In this document: piece after piece, positions 3,099 through 22,315 of the stretch
How positions within the stretch are numbered: the stretch's first letter is position 1
Layout: every line of letters starts with the position of its first letter
Origin: a virus
Strand: one strand, 5' to 3'
IMG/VR virus record: IMGVR_UViG_3300021090_000094
Span: 1 to 26,835 of that record
DNA: 26,835 nucleotides
Notes under the pieces: generated by a model
Databases searched by the model: none
What the model saw: the letters and a program-made list of their open reading frames with translations, nothing else
Told to the model about the DNA's origin: nothing
Position numbers and translations under genes: made by a program

Positions 3099-4466
3099 CT
3101 AGCTGAAGAGACCCATCGCGGCGTACCCGAGGGATTTCAGAGACTGATTCCGCATCTGATTAGCCGCGATAGTACCTTGTAGCTCCGTAGCACTAGGTTG
3201 CGCTAGTGCAGTCAATCGTGCAAGTTCAGTATCGTATTGCTTGCCGCCATAGTCCCGCAGCGCCACCATCATATTCCCAGAGCCGAGATATCCCTGCGAG
3301 GCCATCCTCCGTTCCACAGCTTGCAACCCCGCCTTGTATCCCGGCAGCGAAGTCACGCGGCTCGGATCGGCTTGAAGGGCGGCGGCGTCACTAACCGCCT
3401 GCGTCCTCATCGGCGAGGCTGCCTGAGCAAGTTTCTCCAACTGTCTCGCCTTATTCATCCCGTAGATTCCCGAGACCGCATTAAGCCCCTGCATTCCAGT
3501 CTTCAGCATCCCTCGTTTCTTCATCCAGTCAAGGAATTGCTGGTAATAGCTCTGCCCCGCAGGCTCAGCGCCGAAGGTAGCGCCCCCCGGCCCGCCTGGA
3601 CCGGCTTCCCCTCCGAAGGCGCCTTGGAGGTCTGCGCCTTGAAAGAGGTCTTCAGAGAATACTCCTGAATTAGCCCCACCACTATCAAACACTGGTTCAA
3701 AGCCCCCCTCTGGGAGAGAGAACTGAATTGACGAACTGTTCGGCGCAGCCCCAATTCCTTCTCCGCCAGCAGAGGGAATGAAGCTTCCAGAGAAAGAGGC
3801 AGTAGTACCCACACTTTCCGCCGCTGGCGCCCCTGCTGATAGTTCCGCCGACAGCCCTTCACCGAAGGCGGCTTCACTTCCTCCTCCCGCTGCTGTTGCC
3901 GCTGCTCCGCCGGCTGCTCCGCCGAACGCGCCGCCGACCAGTGCCATTATTCCAGCCTCCAACTGCCCAGCATGCCGCGACTCGCGTTGCCTCACATCTG
4001 CTGAGTGTTGCCCGGCGGTCCAATACTCCGAGCCCTCGCCGAACCCCGCCAGCACTGACCCAATGCCCGGATTATCCTTCGCAGCTAGCTGCGCAATCTG
4101 AAACACCGGGATCATCCAGTTCTGAAACTGCGAGCTCCCGTTCGGGTTCGACTGCGCGAAGGCGGCTTGATACGGCTGCCAATCGAAGTCGTCTGGCAGT
4201 CCGGCGGCTTTACCTATACTCTGTAGTGTTGCGTCCATATGCCGAGGATTAGCCCCAGCATACAGAACATCTTGCAAACTCTTTCCAGGACTGTAATCGA
4301 ATCCTTGAGTATAACCAAGTTCGCTCTGCCCTTGCCCAATATAGCCGCCGCCTTGTGGGTCTTGGAGCGCTCCAATGAACGTTCCAGACTGTGGGTCTAT
4401 CTGATATCCGCTAGGCGCGACGGTCTGTCCCTGTGCCCAGTTCATCATTGTCTGTGCATCAAGCAT
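3099..4466 (-). CDS. Candidate DNA-ejection protein with glycine-zipper segment
   Basis: I place the start at the ATG at 4466, preceded by CAGGAGCCTCAG, giving 455 residues. A longer in-frame extension to 4724 would overlap the upstream gene in another frame and has no such box. The N-terminal half is Gln/Gly/Tyr-rich. Residues about 174-196 are almost pure Gly, Ala and small hydrophobics (LVGGAFGGAAGGAAATAAGG), a glycine-zipper pattern typical of proteins that insert into membranes. Residues 200-330 are low-complexity Gly/Ser/Ala/Pro. The C-terminal 130 residues are helical (LPGYKAGLQAVERRMASQG, then ATELQGTIAANQMRNQS), a pattern I recognise from many podophage virion proteins of this position. 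Function as an ejection (gp7/gp20/gp16-like) protein is inferred from composition and place after the gp10-like gene; there is no direct similarity to P22 sequences that I can see. Confidence 0.8.
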   Translation of the reverse strand: MLDAQTMMNWAQGQTVAPSGYQIDPQSGTFIGALQDPQGGGYIGQGQSELGYTQGFDYSPGKSLQDVLYAGANPRHMDATLQSIGKAAGLPDDFDWQPYQAAFAQSNPNGSSQFQNWMIPVFQIAQLAAKDNPGIGSVLAGFGEGSEYWTAGQHSADVRQRESRHAGQLEAGIMALVGGAFGGAAGGAAATAAGGGSEAAFGEGLSAELSAGAPAAESVGTTASFSGSFIPSAGGEGIGAAPNSSSIQFSLPEGGFEPVFDSGGANSGVFSEDLFQGADLQGAFGGEAGPGGPGGATFGAEPAGQSYYQQFLDWMKKRGMLKTGMQGLNAVSGIYGMNKARQLEKLAQAASPMRTQAVSDAAALQADPSRVTSLPGYKAGLQAVERRMASQGYLGSGNMMVALRDYGGKQYDTELARLTALAQPSATELQGTIAANQMRNQSLKSLGYAAMGLFS

Positions 4467-4521: not shown

Positions 4522-4947
4522 TTATGCTGTAACCAGTGCAACCCACGCTCCGGCTTCCTTGTGGTAGATAACTGTATTTCCGGCCTTTGTCCCGTCGGAG
4601 CGGAAGTAGAAATCCCCATCGCTCCCATCAGTATTGTTAGGAGCACCACTGCCAGCATAGAGATCGGCGGCTGTCTGCGCCACTCCCGCTGGTGTCGTTG
4701 GTCTGTGTCCACCATCTGTGCCAATCGTCTCCTGTTGAAGCTGTGTTAGGTGGTAACGTTGAGAAGAGCTGCCGCCCTGAATAGAAGTTAAACTATTATG
4801 CAGCAATGCTGTTCCACCACTTTCATTTAGTATTTGTGCAAGATCCAAGAACCACTTCAGCCAGACAGGATTGAACTTAGCCTTCTGGGTCTGAGGATTA
4901 ACAATGACGATCTCAGCCCAAGTAGGAGGAGGTTGAAGGCTGGCCAC
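4522..4947 (-). CDS. Small tail/neck-associated protein
   Basis: A 141-residue protein starting at GTG. The upstream gp10-like gene stops in TAG overlapping this start (TAGTG), so translation is probably coupled. The N-terminal part has FNPVWLKWFLDLAQ, a helix I know from small podophage proteins beside the tail hub. The C-terminal part (residues about 95-138: DLYAGSGAPNNTDGSDGDFYF, then TVIYHKEAGAWVAL) is a short beta module often found in phage tail-fibre and fibre-attachment proteins. This suggests a virion part near the tail, perhaps an adaptor for a fibre. No catalytic motif is visible. After it lies a 55-base gap, and the next gene has its own strong ribosome binding site. Confidence 0.75.
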   Translation of the reverse strand: MASLQPPPTWAEIVIVNPQTQKAKFNPVWLKWFLDLAQILNESGGTALLHNSLTSIQGGSSSQRYHLTQLQQETIGTDGGHRPTTPAGVAQTAADLYAGSGAPNNTDGSDGDFYFRSDGTKAGNTVIYHKEAGAWVALVTA

Positions 4948-6350
4948 TATAATACTCCTAAATCCATCTGTAACTCCACCGCTTGAATCCGCGGCATCCT
5001 AATTGGCTTCTTATGCCGGAAGTTATGTACACGGCGGACGAAGGTTCCACAATTGTCCAACGTAGGATTCTTCTTGCTTAAATCAAGCTGGCGATAGTTC
5101 GTCCACTTCTTCGGATTGTAGTCGTGGTCGTTCACCCGCACGTCTAAAGTGCTACCGACCTGCTGATCGCTTACGAGGCGGAGCTGCGAGAGTATCTTCC
5201 GGCGGCGGGTCCCACCATCGAAGTTCGGAGTATAGATATCCACCGTAATCAGATCTCCATCATCCGTTGTGTAGGAACTATCCGCAAGATAAATCCTCCC
5301 ATTCGATTCGTGCTGGAGTAGATGTTGCAGACTTGCACCCACACAGGAATCCACAATCGGCAGATAATTCCCATTCACATCCGTCCATTGACTCCACCGC
5401 CGCTCGTCCATATCGAAGGCGAGTGTGAGATTGCTCTCCTTAAACGTCAGGATATAGAACCTATGACCTTCCAGTTTGAGGGTCCAGGAATAGATCGTCG
5501 TCAGAGTAATGTTATTCAGCAGCCGCTCTATAGGCTTAGTCGATACTACTTCCGCCTTCAGTCCCTCTAATAGAATCACCTCCGGCGATCCCTCTTTCGT
5601 CTTACCTAGCCAAAGAAGTGCTCCATCAAGCTGACGGACGGAATCGGCGGATAGACAGCCCCAGTTCACCTTCGCACCTTCGACTCGGCCCAATGGAGAG
5701 CCGGCGGAGTTGCCCGCGTCGTAGAATATCTCCGTCGTCCATTCCTTAAGCGCAACAACGTAGACGAGTTGCTTGTTCAGCGCGGTTCCTAAGTCTGGCT
5801 CGATCTGCACTAAGATATCGTTGAGTGAATCCCAGTTAACTGGATCATTGATGTCGTCACCAAGAATGTGAGCTGAGGGCGTCATAACGTAGGTAGTACC
5901 ATCAAGATACGCCCACCCTTTGACGAAGGCGGCTGGGAACTGTGCGTCGTTAATCAGTACTAGTCCGGCGCCTGCATCGTAGTTATAGGCGAATAGGCCA
6001 TTTCCGAATTGTAGCTTCGGCGTAGCGCCCATGCAGGAATCGAAGCGATACACTCCATTCGCGGTATTGACTGTCCCTGCTAAAGCTACTCCATCCTTAT
6101 ACACTTTATCCGCGAAGATGGAATAGATATTCCCCTTCCAGTTAAAGATCCCTCTCCCCGTAGCATTAGCCGCCGGCGGCCTGGAATCCTCATCCATCCC
6201 CGGGCGCTCGTAGATCCAGGTCTCTTCCCCCTTCTTCTCCATATACGCATTTACTAACTTCGCGTCGTAAGAGGTAGAGTCGCCTCGGTTCTCCGGCTCA
6301 ATTACGAGAGGGAGACGCTTAGGAAGTTCTATCGTCTGCGTCTGAGGCAT
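4947..6350 (-). CDS. P22 gp10-like packaged-DNA stabilisation / tail hub protein
   Basis: 467 residues. The fold appears all-beta, with repeated strand-turn blocks such as RGIFNWKGNIYSIFADKVYK, FVKGWAYLDGTTYVM and GHRFYILTFKESNLTLAFDM. This fits the propeller-like architecture of P22 gp10, which plugs the portal channel after packaging and forms the tail hub with gp4. The N-terminal line (NRGDSTSYDAKLVNAYMEKK, then ERPGM) is the usual opening of this family: a list of sample parameters, then a beta-propeller. The length is close to P22 gp10 (472). Its start overlaps the stop of the gp4-like gene (TAATG), as expected for proteins made together. I am confident of the family; the detailed role is taken from P22. 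Confidence 0.85.
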   Translation of the reverse strand: MPQTQTIELPKRLPLVIEPENRGDSTSYDAKLVNAYMEKKGEETWIYERPGMDEDSRPPAANATGRGIFNWKGNIYSIFADKVYKDGVALAGTVNTANGVYRFDSCMGATPKLQFGNGLFAYNYDAGAGLVLINDAQFPAAFVKGWAYLDGTTYVMTPSAHILGDDINDPVNWDSLNDILVQIEPDLGTALNKQLVYVVALKEWTTEIFYDAGNSAGSPLGRVEGAKVNWGCLSADSVRQLDGALLWLGKTKEGSPEVILLEGLKAEVVSTKPIERLLNNITLTTIYSWTLKLEGHRFYILTFKESNLTLAFDMDERRWSQWTDVNGNYLPIVDSCVGASLQHLLQHESNGRIYLADSSYTTDDGDLITVDIYTPNFDGGTRRRKILSQLRLVSDQQVGSTLDVRVNDHDYNPKKWTNYRQLDLSKKNPTLDNCGTFVRRVHNFRHKKPIRMPRIQAVELQMDLGVL

Positions 6351-7081
6351 TATCTAAATCCGCCTGTAGGATACCCTCGCTGCATATCAGGGGCGAAATT
6401 CGTTTGGCTATCTTCCACGTCCCAGTTTTCTAACATCGTGCGATACGATTGAGCACGTTGAGCACAGCGGTCCATGATCGCTTGAGGCTGGCCGGTAGAG
6501 ATATCATCAGCTAGTGCCCAGCGAAGGTACATTCGCCACTCTTCAGGGAAGGCCATAGTCTCGACTAGGCTGATCGGGTTGGCGGCTTGGATCTGCATTA
6601 ATAGATGTATTGCCCCATTAGCTGCCTCCGTCGTATCGGGGCAGAGCCAGAAAGTGACAGAGAGAGGCGTGGCTTTCTTATCCACGAAGTAGCTGTTTAC
6701 CGCCCCCTGATTCGCGGCGGCTGTACCAGCCTGCCCAAGGGTGAGATAGTCATTCCAAGCGAGCGCAGTGAGAGGCCGGCGAACGCTACCCGTAGTGAAC
6801 AGATAATAGCCTTGAATCACCCTTAATGGCTTCGTCATTACTACATCACCTGAGGGGCCGAAGGTATAAGTCGCCTGCCCCGCTACCAGCGGCACAGTAA
6901 TATCCTGATTCAGAAACAGCTTCAACCCCTGCGTCTGGCAGGTATTGATAACATCTCTCAACCTCCGCATGTTCGAGGCAAGTTGTTCCGGCGAGGGATC
7001 GTCCCCTTCTTGCAACTTTCCCGCGTCCATCATCGCGTCAGTAATGATCGCGTAGGGAGTGTTGATATCTGGAGTGGTCAT
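6350..7081 (-). CDS. P22 gp4-like head-completion (portal-tail adaptor) protein
   Basis: 243 residues. The opening helix (TPYAIITDAMMDAGKLQEG, then PEQLASNMRRLRDVINTCQTQG) and the following strand block (ITVPLVAGQATYTFGPSGD) are typical of the podophage tail-accessory family that includes P22 gp4. These proteins assemble under the portal once DNA is packaged and receive the gp10 hub. The C-terminal third is helical (MAFPEEWRMYLRWALADDI), which is also usual. It sits directly before the gp10-like gene with a TAATG overlap, matching the gp4-gp10 pairing in P22-like phages. P22 gp4 itself is shorter (166) and has a muramidase activity; I see no sign of such an activity here. Confidence 0.8.
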   Translation of the reverse strand: MTTPDINTPYAIITDAMMDAGKLQEGDDPSPEQLASNMRRLRDVINTCQTQGLKLFLNQDITVPLVAGQATYTFGPSGDVVMTKPLRVIQGYYLFTTGSVRRPLTALAWNDYLTLGQAGTAAANQGAVNSYFVDKKATPLSVTFWLCPDTTEAANGAIHLLMQIQAANPISLVETMAFPEEWRMYLRWALADDISTGQPQAIMDRCAQRAQSYRTMLENWDVEDSQTNFAPDMQRGYPTGGFR

Positions 7082-7393
7082 TTATAGGTCCAAGATTTGA
7101 TACCCGGTTGTGACATCTGGAGTCGGGCTCCAATCAGGTGTTACCGTAATAACCTTCGTCACCCCATTGTAGGTAGAGATTGCCCGCGTCTGCCCGCTTC
7201 CGGCTCCGGCTACTAGCTTAACTGACCAACCGCCTGGGAACTCAACAGGAGCGTCAAGGGCCAAGGTGATACTCGTCGCATCGCCCGTTTGTGCTGTACC
7301 AGCGTACATGACAACAGCGCTCCGCGGCTGCGCGCGTGCGGGCCGTTTATCAAAAGGCGCAGTTGCCTCAGTCCGCCGAGATCTATCGCTCAC
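7082..7393 (-). CDS. Small beta-rich tail/virion protein
   Basis: 103 residues, starting at GTG in a four-base overlap with the stop of the coiled-coil gene (GTGA). The first 28 residues are basic and look disordered. The rest contains the module VMYAGTAQTGDATSITLAL ... GSGQTRAISTYNGVTKVITV ... PDVTTGYQIL. This GxGxGQxRxIxxYNGxTK pattern is common in phage tail-fibre and baseplate-type proteins, where it forms a small beta domain. An ATG at codon 29 would give only the beta module, and I cannot decide between the two starts, although the GTGA overlap favours the longer form. It lies directly before the gp4-like gene with no spacer. Confidence 0.7.
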   Translation of the reverse strand: MSDRSRRTEATAPFDKRPARAQPRSAVVMYAGTAQTGDATSITLALDAPVEFPGGWSVKLVAGAGSGQTRAISTYNGVTKVITVTPDWSPTPDVTTGYQILDL

Positions 7394-7932
7394 GCGGTTC
7401 TCAGCATTTCAAGCTTACGTTTCAGCTTCTGTTCTGAGAGAACAAGTTCTCGTTCCCTCTTCTCCAATTCGTTCTCCAGCTTCTCACACGCTGCGTTACG
7501 CGTAGAAGCGTCCATTGCTTGCTGCGTTTTCTGCTTCTCTAACTCAGCTATTGCTTGACGTAGCTCAGACCACTTTTTGGTCAATTCTGTTCCATTCGCC
7601 TTCAGTTCCTCTTCCTTAGTCGCAGCCGCCCGTAGCCGCACTTCCGCGGCTTCCCTCTTCGCCTTCGCCTGTTCCAGTGTAGTGCTTGCTTCGGCGAGAA
7701 GAGCACTAGCGACGTCTACTGCTTGCGCAGCTTCTACTTTCGCTTCCTCTATCGTTTTAACAAGTCCAAGTTTCTCTTCTAATAGTCCACGCGCTTCCTT
7801 AAATTCTTTGATCTTCCCGTCAAACTTACCAGTGACCACTAGTTGCGCGGCGCCAACCGCTTCGTAGATTTCAAGAAGCAGCTCTGGACTAATGCTCTTA
7901 TGCTCGTGCTCTCTACGAGAACCTTCTCTCAT
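7390..7932 (-). CDS. Coiled-coil protein of unknown function
   Basis: 180 residues with an ATG preceded by AGGAGTTTAAG. After about 25 residues (EHEHKSISPELLLEIYEAVG) nearly the whole protein is a charged helix rich in Ala, Glu, Lys and Leu, with heptad-like spacing from residue 45 to the end. There is no Pro and almost no Gly after residue 50. There is no signal peptide, transmembrane span or catalytic motif. It overlaps the VW-repeat gene upstream (ATGA) and the beta-rich gene downstream (GTGA), so the three are probably made together. Such a rod in a tail accessory segment could be a fibre stalk or a spacer, but a scaffold-like or chaperone role is equally possible. I do not recognise a family. 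Confidence 0.75.
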   Translation of the reverse strand: MREGSRREHEHKSISPELLLEIYEAVGAAQLVVTGKFDGKIKEFKEARGLLEEKLGLVKTIEEAKVEAAQAVDVASALLAEASTTLEQAKAKREAAEVRLRAAATKEEELKANGTELTKKWSELRQAIAELEKQKTQQAMDASTRNAACEKLENELEKRERELVLSEQKLKRKLEMLRTA

Positions 7933-8150
7933 CTTAAACTCCTGTTGAAAGGTGCTTTAACGACTCGTCGCCGCCGGTGCCGCGCGAAGATGAAGCGCCA
8001 GGGTTCCGTTTTAAGCACGGTGATTGTGCTTACACCACTAATTGCTTCATCAGCAGCCGGTGGCGCTCCGCCCTCTGCCCAAACCCCATCAGCCCAGACT
8101 GTTGACGCCCAGACTCCTGCTTTCCATACTCCGTCTACTTGCAGGCTCAT
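7929..8150 (-). CDS. Small virion-type protein with VW pentapeptide repeats
   Basis: 73 residues. Residues 8-27 are four tandem five-residue units: VWKAG, VWAST, VWADG, VWAEG, with Trp at 9, 14, 19 and 24. I recall short phage proteins with this kind of VW-x-x-G opening in tail gene clusters, function unknown. After a small linker (GGAPPAADEA) there is a hydrophobic strand-like part and a very basic C terminus (FARHRRRRVV). The start overlaps the stop of the upstream gene by four bases (ATGA) and its own stop overlaps the next start the same way. The regular aromatic spacing suggests a stacked, solenoid-like or trimeric fold, but that is inference. The basic tail may be the true end or may reflect weak selection where the next ribosome binding site is embedded. 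Confidence 0.7.
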   Translation of the reverse strand: MSLQVDGVWKAGVWASTVWADGVWAEGGAPPAADEAISGVSTITVLKTEPWRFIFARHRRRRVVKAPFNRSLR

Positions 8151-9124
8151 ACGTTGAACGGCGTGACGCTGCCATCCCCGACTATTACCACGTCGTTGAT
8201 CTTCTGAATGTTTGCTAACACTTCCTCGGTCGCTGGATCGAAGTTATTTAACGCGGCAACAGCAGCCAATACTGCATCATCTGCGGTTCCGAGAGCAGTC
8301 GCCAATTCTGCATTCGTCGGCAGATCATCAACGCTGATTTGGCTAGAGCGAGCGTCGAGGATCAAATCTAGCCGCCCGCCGTTCACCCAATCTGTCTGCA
8401 ATTCGTTCGTGTCCACTAGGATTGCCGCGGTGTCCACCTTCATAGCGATGATGTCAGCGGCAACCGTTGCGCCCGCCGCTCCTGTGACTACCGCCCCGTA
8501 GATGGTGTTCGCATCAGCCACAGGATCCCCGATGGCCTGCCCGAAGGTGCCGCCCGTTTGATGCCCAGTCGCATCAAGATCCCACACTTGGCTGGCAACG
8601 GCTGTCAGCCCTGCGCCAGCCGCTCCAATAGTCGTTTCCAAGCCATCCACAAAGTTGTCGATAACCAGTATATCTGCGCTGATGGATGCTCCAGCGGGCG
8701 TACCGAGTTTCGGCTGCATGTCGGCGGTATCTGTCAGGATAGCGGCAGTGTCGGTCTTGATCGCGCCGAGGCCGTCCGTGCCGTTCGCCAAGTCCACGGC
8801 TGCTGCGCTGCGCGAGAGCGTGAATCGAAAGACAACTTCGCCGACCACGGACACACCGCCGACTGTGCCTGTCGTGATGACAAGATGATAATCTTTGCCT
8901 GCTTCAAATCCGTTTGCGCCTGAAGCAACCACCGTGACGAGATTCAATCCGGTTACGGTGTCATGGTCAACGCCCAGGGTGACTCCAGCCGTAATCTGCG
9001 TCACACTTTCATTCTCGTATGCCGATACAACCGGAGACCCGGCAAGCTGTGTCGGAGCACCCGTAGAAAACGAGCGCGTGGTAAATAGCGCGTAGATCGT
9101 GTCGGCTATGGTGTAGTCGCTCAT
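8147..9124 (-). CDS. Fibre/tail-type structural protein with internal repeats
   Basis: 325 residues, acidic, alanine- and threonine-rich. Residues 1-105 read as an immunoglobulin-like beta domain (SVTQITAGVTLGVDHDTVTGLNLVTVV, given here only as a region, ends with GEVVFRFTLS). The rest is a helix-rich repeat region with two copies of a unit: IKTDTAAILTDTADMQ and MKVDTAAILVDTNELQTDW. This combination of a beta domain followed by DTAAIL/DTNEL repeats is common in phage tail or capsid-surface proteins, where the repeats probably form a trimeric coiled coil. It overlaps its neighbours by four bases on both sides, so it belongs to the same operon block. A receptor-binding or surface role is inferred; no enzymatic motif is present. 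Confidence 0.75.
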   Translation of the reverse strand: MSDYTIADTIYALFTTRSFSTGAPTQLAGSPVVSAYENESVTQITAGVTLGVDHDTVTGLNLVTVVASGANGFEAGKDYHLVITTGTVGGVSVVGEVVFRFTLSRSAAAVDLANGTDGLGAIKTDTAAILTDTADMQPKLGTPAGASISADILVIDNFVDGLETTIGAAGAGLTAVASQVWDLDATGHQTGGTFGQAIGDPVADANTIYGAVVTGAAGATVAADIIAMKVDTAAILVDTNELQTDWVNGGRLDLILDARSSQISVDDLPTNAELATALGTADDAVLAAVAALNNFDPATEEVLANIQKINDVVIVGDGSVTPFNV

Positions 9125-10206
9125 GAGGCCAAGCCTCCTGCTCCCGCAAGGCGAAAGTTGTTTCCAACCATTTTGATGAACGCGGCTCCGCCAGCCAAGT
9201 CACCTGTAGAGAAGTTATCTATGGCGATGTCGTTCGTGGATACCACAGAGCCAAAGGCGGTGATCGCGGCTTTGCGATCTCCAGCGCCGCCAGTGAATGT
9301 AGTGTCCGTGGCCGTCATGACCGACACACCATTGTGGTAGCACGTCAGCGTCGAGCCATCGGTCTCAAATTTCAGGTCGCCGGATTCCCTCGTTGTGGTG
9401 TCGGTATCGAGGTTCGAATCGTCATCCCATCTGTAGATACGATTCGCAGGAGTTCCGACATTATTCGAGAACTCCGCTCCATAGCCGTCCCCGCCTCCGG
9501 GGAACGTACCTCCGCGCGCAGCCACCCCTACGGCTAATTGTCCACCGTTACGCACCCAATTCGTGATCGTGAACTGCACGAAGTAGTCAGCGGTGTCCAC
9601 GTCCACTGTCGAACCTTCAACGGGGAACGAACCTGCGACGATATTCACGCAAGCGGCGGCGTTGCTCACAATCGCCCACACGCTAGAATTTCTATCGGCC
9701 CAAGTGTTCGTGCCGCCTGAGAACGTGTCTCCCGTCAAATCTCCATCGGCGCGATTGAAATCATCCGTGTAGGTGACACTGCTATGGGCAACTCTTGCCG
9801 CCTGCGTCCAGAACAGCTTGCCCTTGTCCGGGCCAAGCAGGATCTCGAAACGCTGCCTGCGCTTCGATGGCCGCAGCGCGTTCCACTTACCAGCGCGCGG
9901 GGCCATGAGCAGCCCTGCGATCATCGCCTGCAGCCGGTCAGTTGGCTGAAACGTCCTATCCTCCAAAAAGTCCTGCAGCAACGCGCGCCGGTTCGCTGGC
10001 AGCGCGTCCTCTTTGGAATCCCCTAGCGTCTGCGCCCTTGGATCAGAAATCGTCGTCGGCGTCCAGATCAGCGCACGCCGCGCCGCACCACTGCCTAGCA
10101 GGATGTAGTTCCCGCCAAGGTCGAAGCCGAGCGGCGACCGCTGCATCCCGCCCTTGATGCGGTAGGACGGGCGAACGTCAACTAGCGGGACAATGGCGTA
10201 GGGCAT
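9121..10206 (-). CDS. Tail/surface protein with C-terminal jelly-roll (LamG/ConA-like) domain
   Basis: The start is the ATG at 10206, which shares bases with the stop of the LuxR-type gene (TGATG), giving 361 residues. The upstream in-frame extension to 10308 would lie inside that gene and is not supported. Residues 1-145 are a mixed domain with MPYAIVPLVDVRPSYRIKGG at the start and a basic helical part (RPSKRRQRFEILLGPDKGK). Residues about 146-350 form a beta-sandwich of the laminin-G/concanavalin type: DDFNRADGDLTGDTF, DYFVQFTITNWV, LKFETDGSTLTCYHNGVSV, IAIDNFSTGDL. Such domains in phage virions usually bind sugars or decorate the particle. It probably helps bind the host surface. The fold call is firm; the ligand is unknown. 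Confidence 0.8.
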   Translation of the reverse strand: MPYAIVPLVDVRPSYRIKGGMQRSPLGFDLGGNYILLGSGAARRALIWTPTTISDPRAQTLGDSKEDALPANRRALLQDFLEDRTFQPTDRLQAMIAGLLMAPRAGKWNALRPSKRRQRFEILLGPDKGKLFWTQAARVAHSSVTYTDDFNRADGDLTGDTFSGGTNTWADRNSSVWAIVSNAAACVNIVAGSFPVEGSTVDVDTADYFVQFTITNWVRNGGQLAVGVAARGGTFPGGGDGYGAEFSNNVGTPANRIYRWDDDSNLDTDTTTRESGDLKFETDGSTLTCYHNGVSVMTATDTTFTGGAGDRKAAITAFGSVVSTNDIAIDNFSTGDLAGGAAFIKMVGNNFRLAGAGGLAS

Positions 10207-10430
10207 CAACTTGTGCCGTGATCGAGGACGAACATGGCCACCGCTTGCGCCCGCGTCCTCGCGCCTAGCTTTTCGCACACCAGGCGCACGCGATGCCTGA
10301 CCGTGCAACGCGCCACGCCTAGACGCTTTGCTGTCTCGCCGTCACGCAGACCGTCAGCGATCAACCGCATGGTTTCCTTTTCCTTGTCGTTCAGCACCCC
10401 GACCCGCTCCATGCGCTCCCGGTCCAGCAC
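10206..10430 (-). CDS. Stand-alone LuxR/GerE-type helix-turn-helix regulator
   Basis: 74 residues, consisting of little more than one GerE-type DNA-binding domain: LNDKEKETMRLIADGLRDGE (13-32), TAKRLGVARCTVRHRVRL (33-50) and VCEKLGARTRAQAVAMF (51-67). The conserved positions of the family (L, KE, A-G, E, A--L-V, TV-H, KLG-R-R-QAV) are all there. There is no sensor, receiver or autoinducer domain. The start is uncertain: GTG at 10430, ATG at 10412 and GTG at 10397 are in frame, and the last overlaps the stop of the signal-peptide gene. Its stop shares bases with the next start (TGATG). It sits inside the late structural operon, which is unusual; it may act late in infection on phage or host promoters. 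The family is certain, the target unknown. Confidence 0.8.
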   Translation of the reverse strand: MLDRERMERVGVLNDKEKETMRLIADGLRDGETAKRLGVARCTVRHRVRLVCEKLGARTRAQAVAMFVLDHGTS

Positions 10431-11116
10431 AGGTAGCCCTTGCTCGGGCTCTCCACCCTGATCCCGCCGCTGGCGCTGACGTAGAGTCGCTGATCGTCGG
10501 TGTGCGGCTTGGCCACGCCCACATTGTTCCTATATGCTTGGCCGCCGACGAATGTCCAGATCACGCCAGCAGCATCCACCAACTGCGGTAGCGGGGGATT
10601 GGGGCATGTAGAGCAGATGCCGGTGTAATCCCCGGGCTTGCTAGCAACGGTGGTTGGCACCGGCGTCACTACCGGAGGAGGGGCTGGTGTAATCGGCCCA
10701 GAGATGCTTGTAGCCCCCACCGTCCATTGCAGCGTGCCAGCGCCAGTCACCGGATAGTCAAGTCTCACCGCGAGCGTGCGCCCGGCAGGCACGGTGATAG
10801 ATGGCAACAGTGACAGATCAACCGTGGTATTCGCAGTCCACCCGGCTTGCGAGGTCACTGAAAGACGCAGCCCCGACACCACCATCGGGGAGGTCTTTTG
10901 CCCAGGAAACACCGCCGACACCATGTTTAGCTGCAGGTTCGCCTTCTGCGCCTGCCCGGCGATTGCGGCAAAGCCAGTTGCCGTCGCCCGCAGCGGCACA
11001 ACTGTGGCCTGCACCATTTGTGTCTTGAACGACCACGGACTTTGCACCGGCATCGCGCCGGTCTGCGCCTGCGCCTGGAACGCGCAAAGCAACATCAGTG
11101 CTAGAAGATATCTCAC
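10391..11116 (-). CDS. Exported protein with Sec signal peptide, proline-rich linker
   Basis: 241 residues starting at GTG, with AGGAGG six bases upstream. Residues 1-18 form a clear Sec signal peptide: R2, hydrophobic core YLLALMLLCAF, and an AQA cleavage site. The mature protein has a beta-rich domain (about 25-138), a proline/threonine linker (about 140-160, PITPAPPPVVTPVPTTV) and a C-terminal domain with VDAAGVIWTFVGGQAYRNN and YVSASGGIRVESPSKGYLCW. Four Cys (168, 171, 230, 241) remain after cleavage and may form disulfides in the periplasm. The last domain resembles small modules at the end of phage or bacterial surface proteins. A signal peptide is unusual for a virion protein, so this may be a moron acting on the host envelope. 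It precedes the LuxR-type gene with a 40-base overlap to that frame. Confidence 0.8.
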   Translation of the reverse strand: MRYLLALMLLCAFQAQAQTGAMPVQSPWSFKTQMVQATVVPLRATATGFAAIAGQAQKANLQLNMVSAVFPGQKTSPMVVSGLRLSVTSQAGWTANTTVDLSLLPSITVPAGRTLAVRLDYPVTGAGTLQWTVGATSISGPITPAPPPVVTPVPTTVASKPGDYTGICSTCPNPPLPQLVDAAGVIWTFVGGQAYRNNVGVAKPHTDDQRLYVSASGGIRVESPSKGYLCWTGSAWSGSGC

Positions 11117-11126
11117 ATCAAACCTC

Positions 11127-11525
11127 CTAAACTTTCCGCACTTGAATAATCATTGAGCCTTGGTCGATAGAGGAAGTAAAGCCAGTTGTCGTGATCTGCA
11201 ACTGTCCCGTTCCGTCCATCCCAGAGTCATCCAGCAAGCGCCCAAAGGGACGGAAGTCAATCGGATGATTCGTTCCTTCGGAAATTACCCACTTGAAGGT
11301 CGGCGTGGTTAGGCCAGAAGCGAACTCGATACACGCGTCAAAGCCGGCGAAGTTATAGGCAACATAGTCTAGAGACAATCTCTCCTTAGGCCTCATCCCC
11401 AAAAGCGCCGGGTCAATCAGCGTATAGTCGTTAAGTTCTCCAGAAGCGCCGTCACTCTTCAGATAAACAGACACAATCGCCATACTCGGGCCGTTCAGCA
11501 GCGTCTTGATATTGACTGTATTCAT
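11127..11525 (-). CDS. Conserved phage virion-type protein, unknown function
   Basis: 132 residues with a strong site (AAGGAGATTGC then ATG). The protein is beta-rich with ELNDYTLIDPALLG, SLDYVAYNFAGFDACIEFAS, FKWVISEGTNHPIDFRPFGRL and GQLQITTTGFTSSIDQGSM as main blocks. I recall short phage proteins of this kind near capsid genes (opening with two strands then an Asp-Pro turn), but no function. There is no signal peptide or membrane span. It follows the 171-residue gene after 47 bases that contain a G-rich hairpin, and its own stop (TAG) lies within the ribosome binding site of the exported protein gene. A minor capsid or tail surface role is a guess from context. Confidence 0.7.
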   Translation of the reverse strand: MNTVNIKTLLNGPSMAIVSVYLKSDGASGELNDYTLIDPALLGMRPKERLSLDYVAYNFAGFDACIEFASGLTTPTFKWVISEGTNHPIDFRPFGRLLDDSGMDGTGQLQITTTGFTSSIDQGSMIIQVRKV

Positions 11526-11544
11526 GCAATCTCCTTGGAAAGGA

Positions 11545-11562
11545 GGGAGGGTCTCCCCTCCC
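11545..11562 (-). other. GNRA-loop hairpin between two virion genes
   Basis: On the minus strand GGGAGGG and CCCTCCC flank the tetraloop GAGA. The seven perfect pairs can be extended by a G-U and a G-C pair. The hairpin lies just before the ribosome binding site of the 132-residue gene and is followed by a pyrimidine run (TCCTTTCC), not a clean U-tract. It could be a weak terminator, an RNA-stability element or a processing site that sets the ratio of the two genes. Confidence 0.55.
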
Positions 11563-11572
11563 CCTTAGGTCG

Positions 11573-12088
11573 TTACTGCGCGATCTCTGCCCAAGTGACC
11601 GAGACAATTCCAACTGCCGCCGTGGTCAGATAGGAGAGAGACATTGCACCGCCAGGGAGAATAATCAGATCCCCATTCAGTGTCTCCTTATACTTCGCCG
11701 GCGTGATCGAGGAGGCGGCTACGACCTGACCGATCGCTCTCCACCAAAGGGGCGTGCTAGCGAGTGTTGAGGAGGCGTCGGCTTTACCTACACAGGTAGA
11801 GGATACATTACCAGCCGCCAGCGCGTTGTGGACCACCATCGGAGTCGTGTGCGTGGTCTCCGTTGGGCTAAGCGCGGTGTGGATGCAGATACCAACAGGC
11901 GCGGCGCCGGCGGGTGCGGTCGAGGGTGCGAAGGATATGCTCTTAAGCACCAGCAACTTCCCCGAGCCGTAGCTATTCGACAGCGAGAGCCCGGTACAGG
12001 TAGTGCTGACTGTTGAGAGGGTAACCGCCCCCGCTGAGCAGGCGGTATAGACGTTGCCGAGTCTTGCTTGTTCCAGGAACCAGTCCAT
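11573..12088 (-). CDS. Virion-type beta-rich protein, unknown function
   Basis: 171 residues with ATG preceded by AGGAGCATCAA. It opens with MDWFLEQARLGNVYTAC and continues as a Ser/Thr/Ala/Gly-rich beta protein (VTLSTVSTTCTGLSLSN, LLVLKSISFAPST, GDLIILPGGAMSLSYLTT). Three or four Cys are present (17, 31 and others). There is no signal peptide, so disulfides are not expected during synthesis. The composition and position after the beta-helix protein suggest a small virion surface or decoration protein. I do not recognise a named family. It is probably translated independently, since 22 bases separate it from the upstream stop. Confidence 0.65.
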   Translation of the reverse strand: MDWFLEQARLGNVYTACSAGAVTLSTVSTTCTGLSLSNSYGSGKLLVLKSISFAPSTAPAGAAPVGICIHTALSPTETTHTTPMVVHNALAAGNVSSTCVGKADASSTLASTPLWWRAIGQVVAASSITPAKYKETLNGDLIILPGGAMSLSYLTTAAVGIVSVTWAEIAQ

Positions 12089-12110
12089 TTGATGCTCCTA
12101 TGTGTAAAAG

Positions 12111-13097
12111 TTAGACTGCAAGCGGGTTGAGTACCGGCTGTTTATCGTGCGCGCCGGTGATCGAGCAGTAATTCTCCGCAAATCCCAGCTTGGTGCTGAG
12201 CGGAGCAATCAGCCCTGTTGCAGCGAGGTGCCAAGAATAATTATCGTAGACGAGGCCGGAGCTGGTAGTGCTGCCGCCGCTGAACAACTCACCCGCGGTC
12301 GTACCTGTGTTCAAGCTATAGGTACGATTACCGTAGATTCGCGCATTCTGCGCGGCGTTGGCGCCGAAGGCCCAGCCCAGAGCGACGTTGTTATTTACTG
12401 TCTTGTTGGAGATGAAGTTCTCGGCGAAGGTCGGGCGGTCGATCGCGGCTTGAGTAACCACAGCCGTATTTGCGGCTGGCGGGCTGGTCAGGTTCCTGAG
12501 CACCCTATTCCGCATAAACGTCAAGCCGTCGTTCTGATTAGCCGTAGTGCCGCCGACGAAACAGGCGATGAATCCGAGCGAGGCGCTGGAATCTCTGAAT
12601 TCGCAGTTCTCGATACAGAACTCCTTTGCCACTACTGCATTCGCGTTATTGAACGCGGCGGCTACGAAGGTAGTCGCTGCTCCACCAAGGAACAGGAAGT
12701 TCTGCCACGAGATGTTACTGGCAGACACCGCAATCGTGCTGGTTGTCAGTGACCAGGTGAGCGTCGGGCGATTAGCCCCACTACCAAGTCCGACAAGCGC
12801 AACGCCTGCGATGTCTAGCGTGATGAAGGAGGCTGCACTGATCGTCTCAGCATGTCCTGGCTTGACCATGATGATATCGCCAGTATTCGCTGAGCACTTA
12901 CCAATCGCAGCGTCGATAGTAGCCAGAGGCCGTTGATGGGTCCCAGGGTTCCCATCTGCTCCACCTGTACAACCTGGTAGCAGCGTAGTCCCGTTCCCGA
13001 CCCAGAATACTTGTCCTGGTTGGGCTTGCACCAGCGGCATACCGCGAACGGTGAACCCGTTAGCGAAGCCGTCTGGGAAATTCGAAGGCTTAAACAT
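12111..13097 (-). CDS. Right-handed parallel beta-helix virion protein
   Basis: The real start is the ATG at 13097, preceded by AAAGGAGCAATTGCG; the longer in-frame GTG at 13121 would put this box inside the gene. The protein then has 328 residues. After a short lead (QAQPGQVFWVGNGTTLLPGC) comes GTHQRPLATIDAAIGKCSAN, then TGDIIMVKPGHAETI, the usual first coils of a pectate-lyase-like beta-helix. Later rungs are visible as NISWQNFLFLGGAATT, FCIENCEFRDSS, LTFMRNRVLRN and ARIYGNRTYSLN, each with the Asn-rich turn typical of such solenoids. I see no catalytic Asp/Glu/Arg set that I can assign. Such proteins next to capsid genes may be surface or tail components. It starts the segment downstream of the hairpin cluster. 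Confidence 0.8.
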   Translation of the reverse strand: MFKPSNFPDGFANGFTVRGMPLVQAQPGQVFWVGNGTTLLPGCTGGADGNPGTHQRPLATIDAAIGKCSANTGDIIMVKPGHAETISAASFITLDIAGVALVGLGSGANRPTLTWSLTTSTIAVSASNISWQNFLFLGGAATTFVAAAFNNANAVVAKEFCIENCEFRDSSASLGFIACFVGGTTANQNDGLTFMRNRVLRNLTSPPAANTAVVTQAAIDRPTFAENFISNKTVNNNVALGWAFGANAAQNARIYGNRTYSLNTGTTAGELFSGGSTTSSGLVYDNYSWHLAATGLIAPLSTKLGFAENYCSITGAHDKQPVLNPLAV

Positions 13098-13120
13098 CGC
13101 AATTGCTCCTTTCAGAGACA

Positions 13121-13137
13121 CCCTGGATTCGCCAGGG
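13121..13137 (-). other. Hairpin in the 5' leader of the beta-helix gene
   Basis: CCCTGG and CCAGGG form a perfect six-base-pair stem with a five-base loop. It is transcribed just ahead of the AAAGGAG site of the beta-helix gene and could influence its translation or protect the 5' end of a processed message. Confidence 0.5.
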
Positions 13138-13145
13138 CACGATGG

Positions 13146-13161
13146 GGGCTAGAGACAGCCC
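13146..13161 (-). other. Small hairpin after the capsid gene
   Basis: GGGCT and AGCCC pair perfectly around a six-base loop. It follows an A-run (AAAAA) on the minus-strand RNA, so it is not a standard terminator by itself. It is one of four hairpins between capsid and beta-helix genes. Confidence 0.4.
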
Positions 13162-13166
13162 TTTTT

Positions 13167-13198
13167 GGAGGCCCGTTATCTTTCTATAACAGACCCCC
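13167..13198 (-). other. Long 13-bp hairpin between capsid and beta-helix genes
   Basis: On the minus strand GGGGGTCTGTTAT and ATAACGGGCCTCC pair along 13 positions, three of them G-U, around the loop AGAAAG. The stem is the strongest in the window. It is flanked by A and T runs on both sides rather than followed by a U-tract, so it may act as a bidirectional roadblock, an RNase processing site or a 3' stabiliser of the capsid message. Confidence 0.6.
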
Positions 13199-13200
13199 TA

Positions 13201-13224
13201 AAAGAAGCCCTCTCTCGAAGGCTC
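13201..13224 (-). terminator. Probable intrinsic terminator after the capsid gene
   Basis: Seven bases after the capsid stop the minus-strand RNA reads AGCC-TTCGAGAGAG-GGCT followed by TCTTTT. The stem is short (four to five pairs) and the U-run modest, so termination would be partial. Partial termination here would make capsid mRNA more abundant than the downstream accessory genes, as is common in phages. Confidence 0.5.
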
Positions 13225-13230
13225 CCCTTC

Positions 13231-14145
13231 TTACAGCGACCCAGCGATGCACCGCGGATCGGTCGCTCCTACGCTAAACCGCATGTACGTCGCGGCCATA
13301 GCGTTCTTCGTGCTGAAATCATTATCCTGATCGAACGAGGGGCGATCCCGCCAGAACATTGTCATTCCGTTCGGGCAGTTCGTTCGAACGTACCACTGAC
13401 TCGCTGAAGTGAAGTAGTGGTTTAGCTTAATACCCTTCGGAAATGCGTTCGTGGCCTTTAACACGTTGATGTTATTAGTCACTGCGTCGGATTGCAGTAC
13501 CGACTTAAGGATACGATTCGCATTGAACCACTCTTGACGAGGGATATGCAGGCTCTGCGGCATGATCGAGAGCAGCAGCCCTCTATCCGTCTCTGTGCCC
13601 ATGATCTGAATGCACATATCTTCCAGTGCTACTTCGCTCAGATCCGCACCCGGGTTCAGCTCGTTGCTGTACGTTCCTCCAGTCGTGTTGATGTGCGCCG
13701 TGTCGATCAGTGCTACACCATCGCCCGTAGTGAAGTACGTTGTGACAAAGGCGTTGTTGTAGATGAAGGCCGCCACGTTCTCAATCGTTTGATTGACTGA
13801 GAATGCGTTCGCCTTAGCGCGTCGCATTGAGATAACTTCGTACAGATTGTCCCGAAGCTCCTCAAAGGTAACGATGTAACCGAGCGCATAGGCTATAGGC
13901 GTGTATCGAGTCACTGGACCCTGGACTTCCGAGTCGTAGGTGATCGAGCCGCCTTGGACCTTAATTGGCGCGAGTCCGAAGCCCGTGATCTGGACATCTT
14001 CCTCGTAAGCCATATCCGAATCTTCCTGGTCGAAGAGATCGGGGTACTCTGCTGCATGGGCCTCGTACATCTGACCCCAGAACTCGTGCACTCCAGGCCA
14101 GAGTGCCTTTGGGTGTGACCCAGTAGTGATTACGCCGGCTGGCAT
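13231..14145 (-). CDS. Major capsid protein
   Basis: 304 residues with a strong AAGGAG site. The opening (GVITTGSHPKALWPGVHEFWG), the early DLFDQEDSDMAYEEDVQITGFG and the central E-loop-like part (IKVQGGSITYDSEVQGPVTRY) are typical of HK97-fold capsid proteins in small podophages. Later come a long helix-strand block (ALGYIVTFEELRDNLYEVIS, RRAKANAFSVNQTIENVAAF) and a C-terminal part with RDRPSFDQDNDFSTKNAMAA. The order scaffold, conserved virion protein, decoration-like protein, capsid is what is expected. There is no cleavable delta domain, in agreement with a separate scaffold gene. It is followed at once by a terminator and a hairpin cluster, which suits a highly expressed gene. Confidence 0.88.
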   Translation of the reverse strand: MPAGVITTGSHPKALWPGVHEFWGQMYEAHAAEYPDLFDQEDSDMAYEEDVQITGFGLAPIKVQGGSITYDSEVQGPVTRYTPIAYALGYIVTFEELRDNLYEVISMRRAKANAFSVNQTIENVAAFIYNNAFVTTYFTTGDGVALIDTAHINTTGGTYSNELNPGADLSEVALEDMCIQIMGTETDRGLLLSIMPQSLHIPRQEWFNANRILKSVLQSDAVTNNINVLKATNAFPKGIKLNHYFTSASQWYVRTNCPNGMTMFWRDRPSFDQDNDFSTKNAMAATYMRFSVGATDPRCIAGSL

Positions 14146-14157
14146 GATGGATTCTCC

Positions 14158-14763
14158 TTAGTAGCCGACTTGGCCGATGCGATAGCAGTGAAGGTTGATG
14201 AGAACCAGCCACTTCGCATGTTCGCCGAAGGCATTCCCCTGGCGTTGTGCCAGTCCAAGCAGCTTGAGCTGAAGCGTACCACCTGCGCCCTCGCCGCTGT
14301 TGTTTACTTCCCAGCCGGAAATATATCCGTTATTAACACCGGATACTAAGTCGGCGTTGAGGCCCACTTCGGCGGCTGCGAATGGCGTTCCTCCTGAGAC
14401 CTCTTGGATTTCAAAGATCACATTTGGATCGTCGCAGACCAGGACGTAGTAGTCCCGCGACTTGACTGCCGGGATTACAATGGGGCTCTCTTGTGGCACC
14501 CCGTAAGAACCACCGTAAATGGTGGCACCTGCACCTGAGACGATAGGACCAAGCGTCGAGTTGGTGGCGCCGGCGGTTGCCAGTGTAATCGTCGGTACAC
14601 CTTGTGCATCTGCACTCCCGGCCAGCACGACAGGATCGCCAATTGCATAGGCATTCGAGTCGTCTGTGTTGGGAATACAGTACACGCGGCCTCCCCCATT
14701 CCAGGGGGAACCATTCAGGTACTGTACTGGCGACAGTCCTGATGGGCGATCTACGTTAGCCAT
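14158..14763 (-). CDS. Capsid decoration-like protein
   Basis: 201 residues, with ATG preceded by GGAGATCAGC. It opens with MANVDRPSGLSPVQYLNGSP, a line I recall from small phage proteins just upstream of the major capsid gene. It continues as a beta-rich protein (AIGDPVVLAGSADAQGVPTI, RDYYVLVCDDPNVIFEIQEV, AKWLVLINLHCY). The two clear strand blocks separated by a Gly/Ala-rich part fit a decoration or cement protein that binds the capsid lattice. I have no direct proof of that role. It ends 12 bases before the capsid start, which has its own strong site. Confidence 0.75.
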   Translation of the reverse strand: MANVDRPSGLSPVQYLNGSPWNGGGRVYCIPNTDDSNAYAIGDPVVLAGSADAQGVPTITLATAGATNSTLGPIVSGAGATIYGGSYGVPQESPIVIPAVKSRDYYVLVCDDPNVIFEIQEVSGGTPFAAAEVGLNADLVSGVNNGYISGWEVNNSGEGAGGTLQLKLLGLAQRQGNAFGEHAKWLVLINLHCYRIGQVGY

Positions 14764-16524: not shown

Positions 16525-16768
16525 CTTCCATCTCTCCTTTTAGTTGCTCGAAGTTCATCTCTTGAAGGAACTTATATGCCTGGGCCTGCCCGATTGCGGC
16601 GGCGTTCCTTAGCATCTGTTCATCCTTTGATAGTTCTAGCACAATGCCATCCTCCCATCTATCCTTCAGCTCCTGTCGCTTGCGCCGAAGAGCCTCGCGA
16701 ATTACCTCCGTTACCGGGTCTTCCAGCCATGAGAGAAACATCTCCTCCGTTACGTTCAGCTTGGGCAT
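16517..16768 (-). CDS. Small conserved protein overlapping the portal gene end
   Basis: 83 residues with ATG preceded by GGAGCTAAGAG, the best local start. It overlaps the last 110 bases of the portal gene in another frame. The protein is helical: KLNVTEEMFLSWLEDPVTEV, REALRRKRQELKDRWEDG, LELSKDEQMLRNAAAIGQAQ. I recall small genes of this type directly after phage portal genes, with the FxxWLExPVTxxxxxAL opening, without a function. The C terminus overlaps the next start by eight bases. Because the portal tail is low-complexity there (Gly, Ser, Asn), selection probably favours this frame. Confidence 0.8.
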   Translation of the reverse strand: MPKLNVTEEMFLSWLEDPVTEVIREALRRKRQELKDRWEDGIVLELSKDEQMLRNAAAIGQAQAYKFLQEMNFEQLKGEMEDG

Positions 16769-18761
16769 CTCTTAGCTCCATTATCTTAATCGCAGCGTCG
16801 ATTCGTTTCATAAGCACTTCATCCTTGGATTTCAACATTCCAAGCATTGCGTTGAGCATTCCTACTTTACGATCCTGAACATCGCCGGCTGTATCAAGCC
16901 GCGCTTGCTCAAGATCACCCATGATCTTCATGATTTCAGCGTTATTCATCCGCTGCTCTTCCATCAGCGCCATGACGAACTTCTGCTTCTCAAAGCCGAG
17001 CCAGAGGTTCTCGGTTTGGGCCTTGAGCTCAGCGATGGAGAGCTTGATGTCCTTCGGCATGCCAGTTTTCTTGATTCCAGGGTAGATCTGGTCGATCCCG
17101 TCGATCTTGATAGCCTTGAGGTAGCGGCGTTCTACAGCTTCAACATCGTACCCAGGAGTCTGCATGGCGGCAGCTTTTAGCATCTGCGCCTGCGCCATTT
17201 GCATCTGTTCGGAGGTTACATTCGGGTCGGCGGCAGGGGCGACTTCATCTGGGTTGCCAAGATAATCCTCTCTCAGCACCACGACGCCCTGACCAAAGGA
17301 TTTCCTCCGCGGCATGTGGATACCGTTGAGGATATAGCCCTTCTTGAACTCCTCTTTCATACAGCGCCAGACTCGCTTGAATACGCCGGAGTAGATCCGT
17401 GAGCCTTCTTGGATCATTGAGCGGGTGGTCTCGGCGGGAGTGTTCTGTCCAGTAGATTCTCCCACCATTGGATCGGTAGTTCCACTAATCCGCTGGACGT
17501 AGTTGATTAAGAGGCTCAGTAGCTGGAACAGGACTGCGTTCGGCTCTCTAACCGGAAGGGGGACAAGAGATTTACTGAGATCCTCGCCGCCCGAGTCCAC
17601 ACGCTGCCAGCCAAAGGGCTGGAATGTGTAGGTGCCGCCGCGAAGCTTCGCGCCACGCCCGAGGAAGCCGCCGGCTGTAATACTCATCGTCCCGGCGTCT
17701 ACGAGTTGGTTGATGATGGAGTTCGTTGATTCGTTAAGCGGACCGAGTAGTACCCCAAAGCCCACATCATATATCCCTCCATCTGGCGATGGAATGAAGG
17801 AATACTTAGTGAAGTATTGCAGCGCACGGATGGAGATAATCTCCCCGCTCTTCGTCCGTTCTATATCTTCAGGTCGGTCAAAGCCAGTAACGATGCGGAG
17901 GACACAGCCAGTTGTCTGCTCAACTGTGATGATATAAGGCTCTGCATACCCATCATTATCCAGATCGAGATCAACGTGCTGTTCCAGACCTATAAACGGC
18001 GTAGTCTGATCCGTCTGTGGAGGGGTCATGCCTCTGCGATTGTCCCTCTGAGCCTCACTCGCACCTGTAGGCGCCGGGGCAGGCTGTTGATACCAAGCTT
18101 CTTCGCTGATATCCCGAAACACTTTACGCTTAATCCTCGAATGGATCTCATTGCGGAAGAAGGGGATGATGTGGGTCTTACGGGGGCAGGACTCTACGCT
18201 CTTCGCGTAGTAGTCCAGAACCAGGTCCTGCGCCAGAACGGTCTCGTCTACCTTATGGCCCTTATCGGCGTCGTAGTAAGACTTCGTGAATACCGTTCCG
18301 ACGATTGGGAGGTTGATTAAGAGCCTATCCTTCTCTTCCTCCCAAGCCTTATCTTCCTCCAGCACCTGCCAGCTCATGTGCATGGAGATGCGCTGAGCGC
18401 GGGCTGTTTTCTCTCCTGTAGGATCGTCGCCGATGATCCTACACTTTACTAGCTCGGCGCCGACTAACAGCGCAGGATAGGCGCGGGAGTGGAAGCTAAG
18501 AGCCGCGATGGTAATTAGAGGAAAGGCGATATTCGAGCACCCCGCCCAAGGGAAATTCTTATCCCGCTGCACCTGCATAGCAAGGTCCATTGCGCTTTGC
18601 GTGCGGCGCTCCCACTTCGCGCGGGAGGCTTTGTCGAGCTTGAATCCATCGCTTACACATGTGCCAATGCGATCAAGGTCGGTCTTGGAGAAACGATCAC
18701 AGAGGTTCGGGGACTTAATCACATCGTCATCGAGGGTGATATACTGGTCGAGGGTGAGCAT
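16659..18761 (-). CDS. Portal protein
   Basis: 700 residues, long like the P22-type portals (725). The protein has the opening LCDRFSKTDLDRIGTCVSDG, then RDKNFPWAGCSNIAFPLITI (the W-G-SN--FPL signature of these portals), and later VGFGVLLGPLNESTNSIINQ, ISGTTDPMVGESTGQNTPAE and MIQEGSRIYSGVFKRVWRCM in the clip-to-stem region. The C-terminal 130 residues are helical (ELKAQTENLWLGFEKQKFVM) and may form part of a barrel. The final 40 residues are Gly/Asn/Ser-rich and overlap the next gene. It follows TerL by two bases with AGGA upstream. Twelve copies form the channel for DNA packaging in the family. Confidence 0.88.
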   Translation of the reverse strand: MLTLDQYITLDDDVIKSPNLCDRFSKTDLDRIGTCVSDGFKLDKASRAKWERRTQSAMDLAMQVQRDKNFPWAGCSNIAFPLITIAALSFHSRAYPALLVGAELVKCRIIGDDPTGEKTARAQRISMHMSWQVLEEDKAWEEEKDRLLINLPIVGTVFTKSYYDADKGHKVDETVLAQDLVLDYYAKSVESCPRKTHIIPFFRNEIHSRIKRKVFRDISEEAWYQQPAPAPTGASEAQRDNRRGMTPPQTDQTTPFIGLEQHVDLDLDNDGYAEPYIITVEQTTGCVLRIVTGFDRPEDIERTKSGEIISIRALQYFTKYSFIPSPDGGIYDVGFGVLLGPLNESTNSIINQLVDAGTMSITAGGFLGRGAKLRGGTYTFQPFGWQRVDSGGEDLSKSLVPLPVREPNAVLFQLLSLLINYVQRISGTTDPMVGESTGQNTPAETTRSMIQEGSRIYSGVFKRVWRCMKEEFKKGYILNGIHMPRRKSFGQGVVVLREDYLGNPDEVAPAADPNVTSEQMQMAQAQMLKAAAMQTPGYDVEAVERRYLKAIKIDGIDQIYPGIKKTGMPKDIKLSIAELKAQTENLWLGFEKQKFVMALMEEQRMNNAEIMKIMGDLEQARLDTAGDVQDRKVGMLNAMLGMLKSKDEVLMKRIDAAIKIMELRDAQAERNGGDVSLMAGRPGNGGNSRGSSAQATGAEG

Positions 18762-21761: not shown

Positions 21762-22049
21762 CAACTGTCCTCTCAGGCATAGAGCGGGCGGCGGAACGAT
21801 GTTCTGGGCCAAATGGACCCCTATTATGGAACGATAAGAGGAGCCCGATTCCCCCAGGGCCAAAAAATGAGAAACTGCATTAAGCACTATTTCGCGTGGA
21901 GTAATTTTCCCCCCACCCCCTTGATTCGGGGCTAGGGGTCGGGTCAGTCGGGCGGGGACGACAGCCGGGCGGCGGGGGATGGTGTATGCTGCGGCGCGGC
22001 ATGATCGTGTATGCGTCGGGCTGCAGCGACACGTTGGGCCGCGCACCGG

Positions 22050-22067
22050 ACTGGTGCATTAACCAGT
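22050..22067. promoter_or_regulatory. Palindrome, possible operator
   Basis: ACTGGT and ACCAGT are perfect inverted copies around six bases (gcatta). The 18-base size with two half sites about one helical turn apart (centre to centre 12) fits a dimeric repressor site. The protein binding it is unknown. Confidence 0.45.
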
Positions 22068-22079
22068 TGATGATTCGAC

Positions 22080-22097
22080 GTGTCGGCGGCTCGACAC
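22080..22097. promoter_or_regulatory. GTGTCG palindrome, possible operator
   Basis: GTGTCG and CGACAC flank six bases (gcggct). Further single half sites GTGTCG lie at about 22203-22208 and, reversed (CGACAC), at about 22027-22032. Repeated half sites in a control region suggest a regulator binding here, but the arms are short. Confidence 0.45.
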
Positions 22098-22147
22098 ATT
22101 CATCCTCCCATCCAGTTCATTTATACCCCCATCAATATGACTGAACT

Positions 22148-22181
22148 GCCCAGAATTGTCACATTCGGCCCAGAATTGTCA
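22148..22181. repeat. 14-base direct repeat, two copies 20 bases apart
   Basis: GCCCAGAATTGTCA occurs at 22148-22161 and again at 22168-22181, an exact match with start-to-start distance of 20, about two helical turns. Two sites on the same face suggest cooperative binding of a regulator or replication protein. Only two copies are seen. Confidence 0.6.
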
Positions 22182-22282
22182 ATGAGTGACGTTGGCGGGC
22201 ATGTGTCGAGAACCTGACGGTAATGTAATCAATCAGTTACGATGGTGGGAACTAGGCACGGGGATTGCATGTCTATTAGGTG

Positions 22283-22298
22283 CGGGCAATGGTGCCCG
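22283..22298 (+). other. Leader hairpin before the first early gene
   Basis: CGGGCA and TGCCCG form a perfect six-base-pair stem with a four-base loop (atgg). It ends seven bases before GGAGG, the ribosome binding site of the gene at 22316, and might modulate initiation. Confidence 0.45.
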
Positions 22299-22315
22299 GT
22301 TAATGGAGGCTTGAT

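Follow-up and report, generated by a model that had tools for sequence, protein, structure and literature searches.

The window analysed here, 26,835 nt of IMG/VR virus record IMGVR_UViG_3300021090_000094 (positions 1 to 26,835), belongs to an uncultured tailed phage. Within an accessory block that has the major capsid gene on one side and the head-closure genes on the other, it carries a gene for a stand-alone GerE/LuxR-type helix-turn-helix (HTH) protein (10206..10430, minus strand; 74 aa from GTG 10430). This gene is accessory cargo and no fixed part of the late programme, and it was most likely acquired recently. Taken as one statement, that it encodes a captured bare GerE regulator, made late and acting as a constitutive dimer on host NarL/LuxR-type promoters, we consider the proposal about evenly poised between right and wrong.

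The translated open reading frame, (M/V)LDRERMERVGVLNDKEKETMRLIADGLRDGETAKRLGVARCTVRHRVRLVCEKLGARTRAQAVAMFVLDHGTS, matched the GerE family (PF00196) in a Pfam profile search with 32.6 bits (E 6.1e-8), above the curated cut-off of 23.5 bits. The match covers profile positions 2-56 of 57, corresponding to protein residues 12-66, and a search of the whole record (26,835 bases) returned it as the sole GerE domain. This profile search, which the initial annotation had suggested, bears out its reading of a complete GerE domain without a sensor; the strand, which it omitted, is minus. There are 11 residues N-terminal of the domain and eight C-terminal, so that the 74-aa protein has no space for a sensor. 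An autoinducer-binding N-terminal domain is absent from it, with no such Pfam match, as is a phospho-receiver N-terminal domain, and since these defining domains are missing the protein is neither a LuxR quorum-sensing receptor nor a response regulator. Structure prediction had been suggested as well, and the AlphaFold model (single-sequence input; mean pLDDT 74.7, mostly 70-90) shows helices at residues 15-29, 31-39, 41-55 and 60-71 plus a weaker N-terminal helix, that is, the four-helix GerE fold with its helix-turn-helix and C-terminal dimerisation helix. The best Foldseek matches in the PDB were DNA-binding domains of the LuxR/NarL family (RhlR, LiaR, VraR, GerE, and NarL), with weak E-values (0.05-0.9), a consequence of the short length and moderate confidence of the model. 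By its profile match and predicted fold, the protein belongs to the GerE domain family. Aligned with NarL (1je8), the protein has TVRHRVR in its recognition helix where NarL has TVKVHVK. The recognition-helix lysines are known from the NarL-DNA complex, and the arginines in their place would keep the charge needed for DNA contact. The 74-aa protein presumably binds DNA and dimerises. Two other identities were considered and rejected. A match to phrog_3282 'sigma factor' (E 2e-8) spans only the common HTH stretch, is also obtained with other GerE solos, and is set against a Pfam result that puts GerE far above sigma region 4. For a defence role, there was nothing but a weak CARF-model match over the HTH.

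The GerE gene is closely fitted between its neighbours. Its stop codon TGA (10208-10206) shares bases, as TGATG, with the ATG of the following gene (9121..10206, minus strand), as the initial annotation had described, and its 5' end overlaps the preceding gene for an exported protein (10391..11116, minus strand) by 40 nt from GTG 10430 or by 22 nt from ATG 10412. The latter and GTG 10397 are the other available starts; the domain stays whole from either, with GTG 10397, internal to the ORF, falling right at the domain start. ATG 10412 is preceded by a weak start signal (gggagcgcATG), whereas the exported-protein gene has a strong one, aggaggtttgatGTG, with the Shine-Dalgarno sequence aggaggt before its GTG. 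Because of this difference in start signals, translation of the GerE gene is likely coupled to that of the exported-protein gene, its putative upstream partner. No signs of decay were found in the GerE gene, the ORF being intact and the domain conserved.

Both neighbours had been assigned at first sight, one as an exported protein and the other as a jelly-roll surface protein. In the former, the 241-aa exported protein, an N-terminal signal peptide was recognised by eye, MRYLLALMLLCAFQAQA-Q. It had no family match in Pfam, PHROG, and further family searches and no relatives in the phages or plasmids searched; its matches were one at a contig end in IMG/VR (locus L002) and one of 26 residues in a Ruminococcus MAG. 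The jelly-roll is not confirmed, since the 361-aa virion-operon protein of 9121..10206 gave no Pfam, PHROG, NCBIfam, or PDB match, and the homologue scans found no relatives of it. Positions 10995-11069 of the exported-protein gene are identical to L002:4676-4750 (75 nt at 100%), at the end of that phage contig, where an identical mature N-terminus is preceded by a signal peptide of unrelated sequence and a large portal-like protein, recognised by eye, lies upstream. This match reflects either mosaicism with a sharp junction or a fork in the assembly. A chimeric assembly, raised by the shared 75 nt, was rejected as a source of the GerE gene, which has no part in that stretch and is joined to both neighbours by overlaps.

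Next, we considered the operon as a whole. The large terminase subunit TerL (18764-20239), a weak portal match (16659-18761), head closure protein Hc3 (4947-6350), and weak scaffold and capsid matches all lie on the minus strand with the GerE gene. Therefore, the operon is the late operon, in agreement with the initial annotation. As no minus-strand promoter- or terminator-like site was found in 9000-14200, the GerE gene is probably read with the operon, and its protein would appear late, together with the other operon products. Being made from the operon itself, the protein might also act on it as a feedback switch that, bound within the operon or close to the late promoter, either boosts late transcription or shuts it off. 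Such a late regulator is possible, though we think it rather unlikely. It is kept alive by GerE solos that adjoin terminase or late genes in other phages and by an operator-like inverted repeat upstream of the late operon (22113-22148, CAGTTCA-N22-TGAACTG), which sits beside a minus-strand promoter-like site (22182-22155) reading towards the operon. The repeat had no match in 100 shuffles, but it carries little weight because it is absent from all 112 loci and was noticed after looking. Moreover, the GerE gene lies inside the late operon and not ahead of it, and the conserved head genes run in relatives without GerE. In the same upstream region, at 22041-22330, TGACAATTCTGGGC occurs twice in direct orientation with a spacing of about 20 nt, and the copies overlap the promoter-like sites.

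Relatives of the phage were collected from IMG/VR with the major capsid protein homologue (13231..14145, minus strand), the anchor of the comparison, which gave 80 relatives at 69-84% identity; searching with the Hc3 protein returned five loci. Gene order is the same in MW202796.1, a complete circular genome of 43.8 kb whose annotation names the terminase, connector, and major capsid protein. Those loci with both the capsid gene and the downstream border gene (6350..7081, minus strand; phrog_12985, matched in 63 loci) were taken as spanning relatives, 57 distinct loci in total. The interval between the two genes ranges from 0.9 to 8.7 kb in these loci (median, 1.9 kb) and is 6.15 kb in the window. 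A comparison of related phages for the same gene at the same place, as had been proposed, found it in 0/57 spanning loci. No GerE domain above the cut-off was found in any of 88 records, nor did Pfam detect any other HTH among 126 representative interval proteins. Three relatives gave weak GerE matches, of 11-12 bits and within frames of 196-1531 aa, which were judged to be chance. The 42% identity of a short ORF at L012:3751-3960 in a mixed alignment was dismissed as meaningless, because the proteins combined there are not related and Pfam detects no HTH in the ORF.

The accessory block comprises seven genes over about 4 kb (7082..11116, minus strand), namely, the exported-protein and GerE genes and the ORFs starting at 9121, 8147, 7929, 7390, and 7082. 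It is missing in loci L028 and L035, which have a clean junction at which orthologues of the upstream border gene (11127..11525, minus strand; also found in L012, L031, L040, and L041) and of the 6350 gene abut. In L028, the former stops 5 nt ahead of the latter; in L035, the two overlap by ATGA. The initial annotation had named relatives lacking the gene at a clean junction, together with decay of this copy, as evidence against its reading; such relatives were found, decay was not, and the status of accessory cargo follows from this. Absence from collinear relatives with a clean junction and a base composition unlike that of the genome are shared with morons. However, a promoter and terminator of its own, which mark the classic prophage morons, were not seen for the GerE gene, and accessory cargo is therefore the safer term. 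The block need not have entered in a single step, because ORFs 8147 and 7082 have relatives in L042 and L006, which lack GerE. Within 7082-9124, both of these ORFs match one 573-aa protein of L006, and ORF 8147 also matches a 571-aa protein of L042. Since the two match a single L006 protein, the corresponding gene seems to have been split or recombined here. The 180-aa protein of 7390-7932 has weak SMC/JetC-like matches, which probably reflect only the composition of a coiled coil.

As seen in the relatives, the capsid-to-6350 interval is a variable slot in which the genes differ from locus to locus and include those for lysozyme, holin, and endonuclease VII. With such cargo in the slot, position says little about membership of the particle. 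This bears on the idea that the GerE protein is a minor component of the virion, packaged into the particle and delivered along with the genome to act as the next infection begins. Its position among particle genes is the one point in favour of this idea, the protein has no structural-protein match, and we regard such a role as very unlikely.

To investigate the origin of the gene, composition was compared with a background of equal-length fragments of the record's other genes. Together, the exported-protein and GerE genes have a GC content of 62.8%, versus 55.8% for the record, and a GC3 of 0.72-0.74. No background fragment reaches the GC or the low codon score of the exported-protein gene; for the GerE gene, 6.3% of the fragments reach its GC and 2.3% its codon score, and for these 207 nt, taken alone, the case for foreign composition is weak. 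By tblastn, the GerE protein is 46-49% identical to regulators encoded on plasmids or megaplasmids of actinobacteria and Paracoccus, and its best E-value against annotated phage records is 5e-3. Single-protein scans of viral contigs and genome contigs found no relatives; in IMG/VR, an alignment-based scan yielded seven loci, the best of them L101-L103 (50% over 54 aa). Because the best protein matches are bacterial regulators and those in annotated phage records are weak, the gene probably derives from a bacterial NarL/LuxR-type regulator, with or without passage through temperate phages. A fragment of such a regulator could be a selfish or neutral passenger, carried along with the exported-protein gene and without function for the phage. 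Its sporadic presence, the lack of a conserved relative at this site, the atypical codon usage, and the weak start signal are consistent with a passenger; nevertheless, the ORF is intact, the domain is complete and fitted by overlaps to both neighbours, and compact phage genomes normally shed useless DNA. We consider a mere passenger unlikely.

The proposal of a host-directed regulator can be set out in steps. An accessory gene from a bacterial NarL/LuxR-type regulator would retain only the DNA-binding and dimerisation domain, would be transcribed with the late operon, and would be translated in coupling with the exported-protein gene ahead of it. Because the protein has no receiver or ligand domain, it would, once made, bind DNA constitutively as a dimer, and its activity would track its synthesis, as is the case for Bacillus GerE. 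Its targets would be those host promoters on which NarL/LuxR-type regulators normally act, and late in infection it might activate, block, or compete for them. Since collinear relatives do without GerE, it is not needed to run the late operon, and because the operon runs without it, host promoters are the likelier target and the phage's own late promoter the next; we infer a host target on these grounds. Of the two functions raised in the initial annotation, switching on its own operon is thus weakened by the status of the gene as accessory cargo, and interference with host regulation is the likelier, although unproven. Counted against host targets are the solos beside packaging genes in RHph_Y25, L107, and PGB, which point to late-gene control for those proteins. 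A narrower version, in which a bare host-type NarL/LuxR domain made with the virion proteins is a late competitor at host regulator sites, a captured dominant-negative, appears quite doubtful to us. If the host-directed proposal is true, a host signalling regulator has been cut to its DNA-binding half and placed in a virion operon, where the timing of expression replaces sensing. It also suggests that GerE solos should be sought as optional cargo adjoining tail genes.

The initial annotation held that late structural operons seldom contain a transcription factor, which is partly right: phage GerE solos are already in public records, from Rhizobium, Vibrio, and Nostoc phages and others, and several adjoin late genes. 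The 67-aa solo of Rhizobium phage RHph_Y25 (EVC10_067) lies beside the terminase, about 2.5 kb upstream; that of locus L107 (92 aa) precedes a phrog_38 terminase by about 1.3 kb; and that of Vibrio phage vB_VpaS_PGB (WVH05558.1, 101 aa) lies beside packaging genes. The closest viral relative, in L101, is between a tail-fibre gene and an integrase, which is a usual cargo spot, and the viral structure library BFVD has entries named 'Transcription regulator LuxR, C-terminal'. These solos, with those of Nostoc phage N1 (AND75511.1) and L106, resemble the window protein in having one GerE domain in 67-128 aa and no sensor, and in several cases in lying near late genes. They differ in being only 30-50% identical and in adjoining terminase, tail-fibre, or integrase genes, whereas the window gene is overlapped on both sides inside a virion operon. 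The new element is therefore its place, as optional cargo overlapped on both sides, and through the window the scattered phage solos gain an example from a late operon. Our search found no literature directly on phage GerE solos and no function for them.

Among bacterial proteins, Bacillus subtilis GerE (PDB 1fse) is likewise a 74-aa stand-alone domain, governed by its own synthesis and not by a signal; it differs in being a bacterial sporulation regulator, and the sequence match is weak (E 7e-4). Response regulators of the NarL/DesR type have the DNA-binding domain in common with the window protein (DesR, E 9e-7; NarL, E 2e-4) but also a receiver, which is lacking here, and with it phosphorylation control. 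Phage LuxR receptors and XRE-LuxR-smORF modules also place a LuxR-type DNA-binding domain on a phage; they contain an acyl-homoserine-lactone domain and trigger the induction of temperate phages with an XRE partner (PMC6456758; PMC10432266). In contrast, the window protein has no ligand domain and is encoded in a late operon, and the layout of an adjacent XRE gene and a counter-oriented small ORF is absent, both neighbours being same-strand exported-protein or virion-operon genes. Two further observations were made in passing. Bordetella phage PBb001 (L100) has an unannotated GerE-domain ORF at 4001-4159 (46.6 bits), near lysozyme and tail-collar genes, and L104 and L105, on contigs classed as viral, encode longer regulators (254-282 aa) in which the GerE domain is C-terminal and the N-terminus looks receiver-like by eye.
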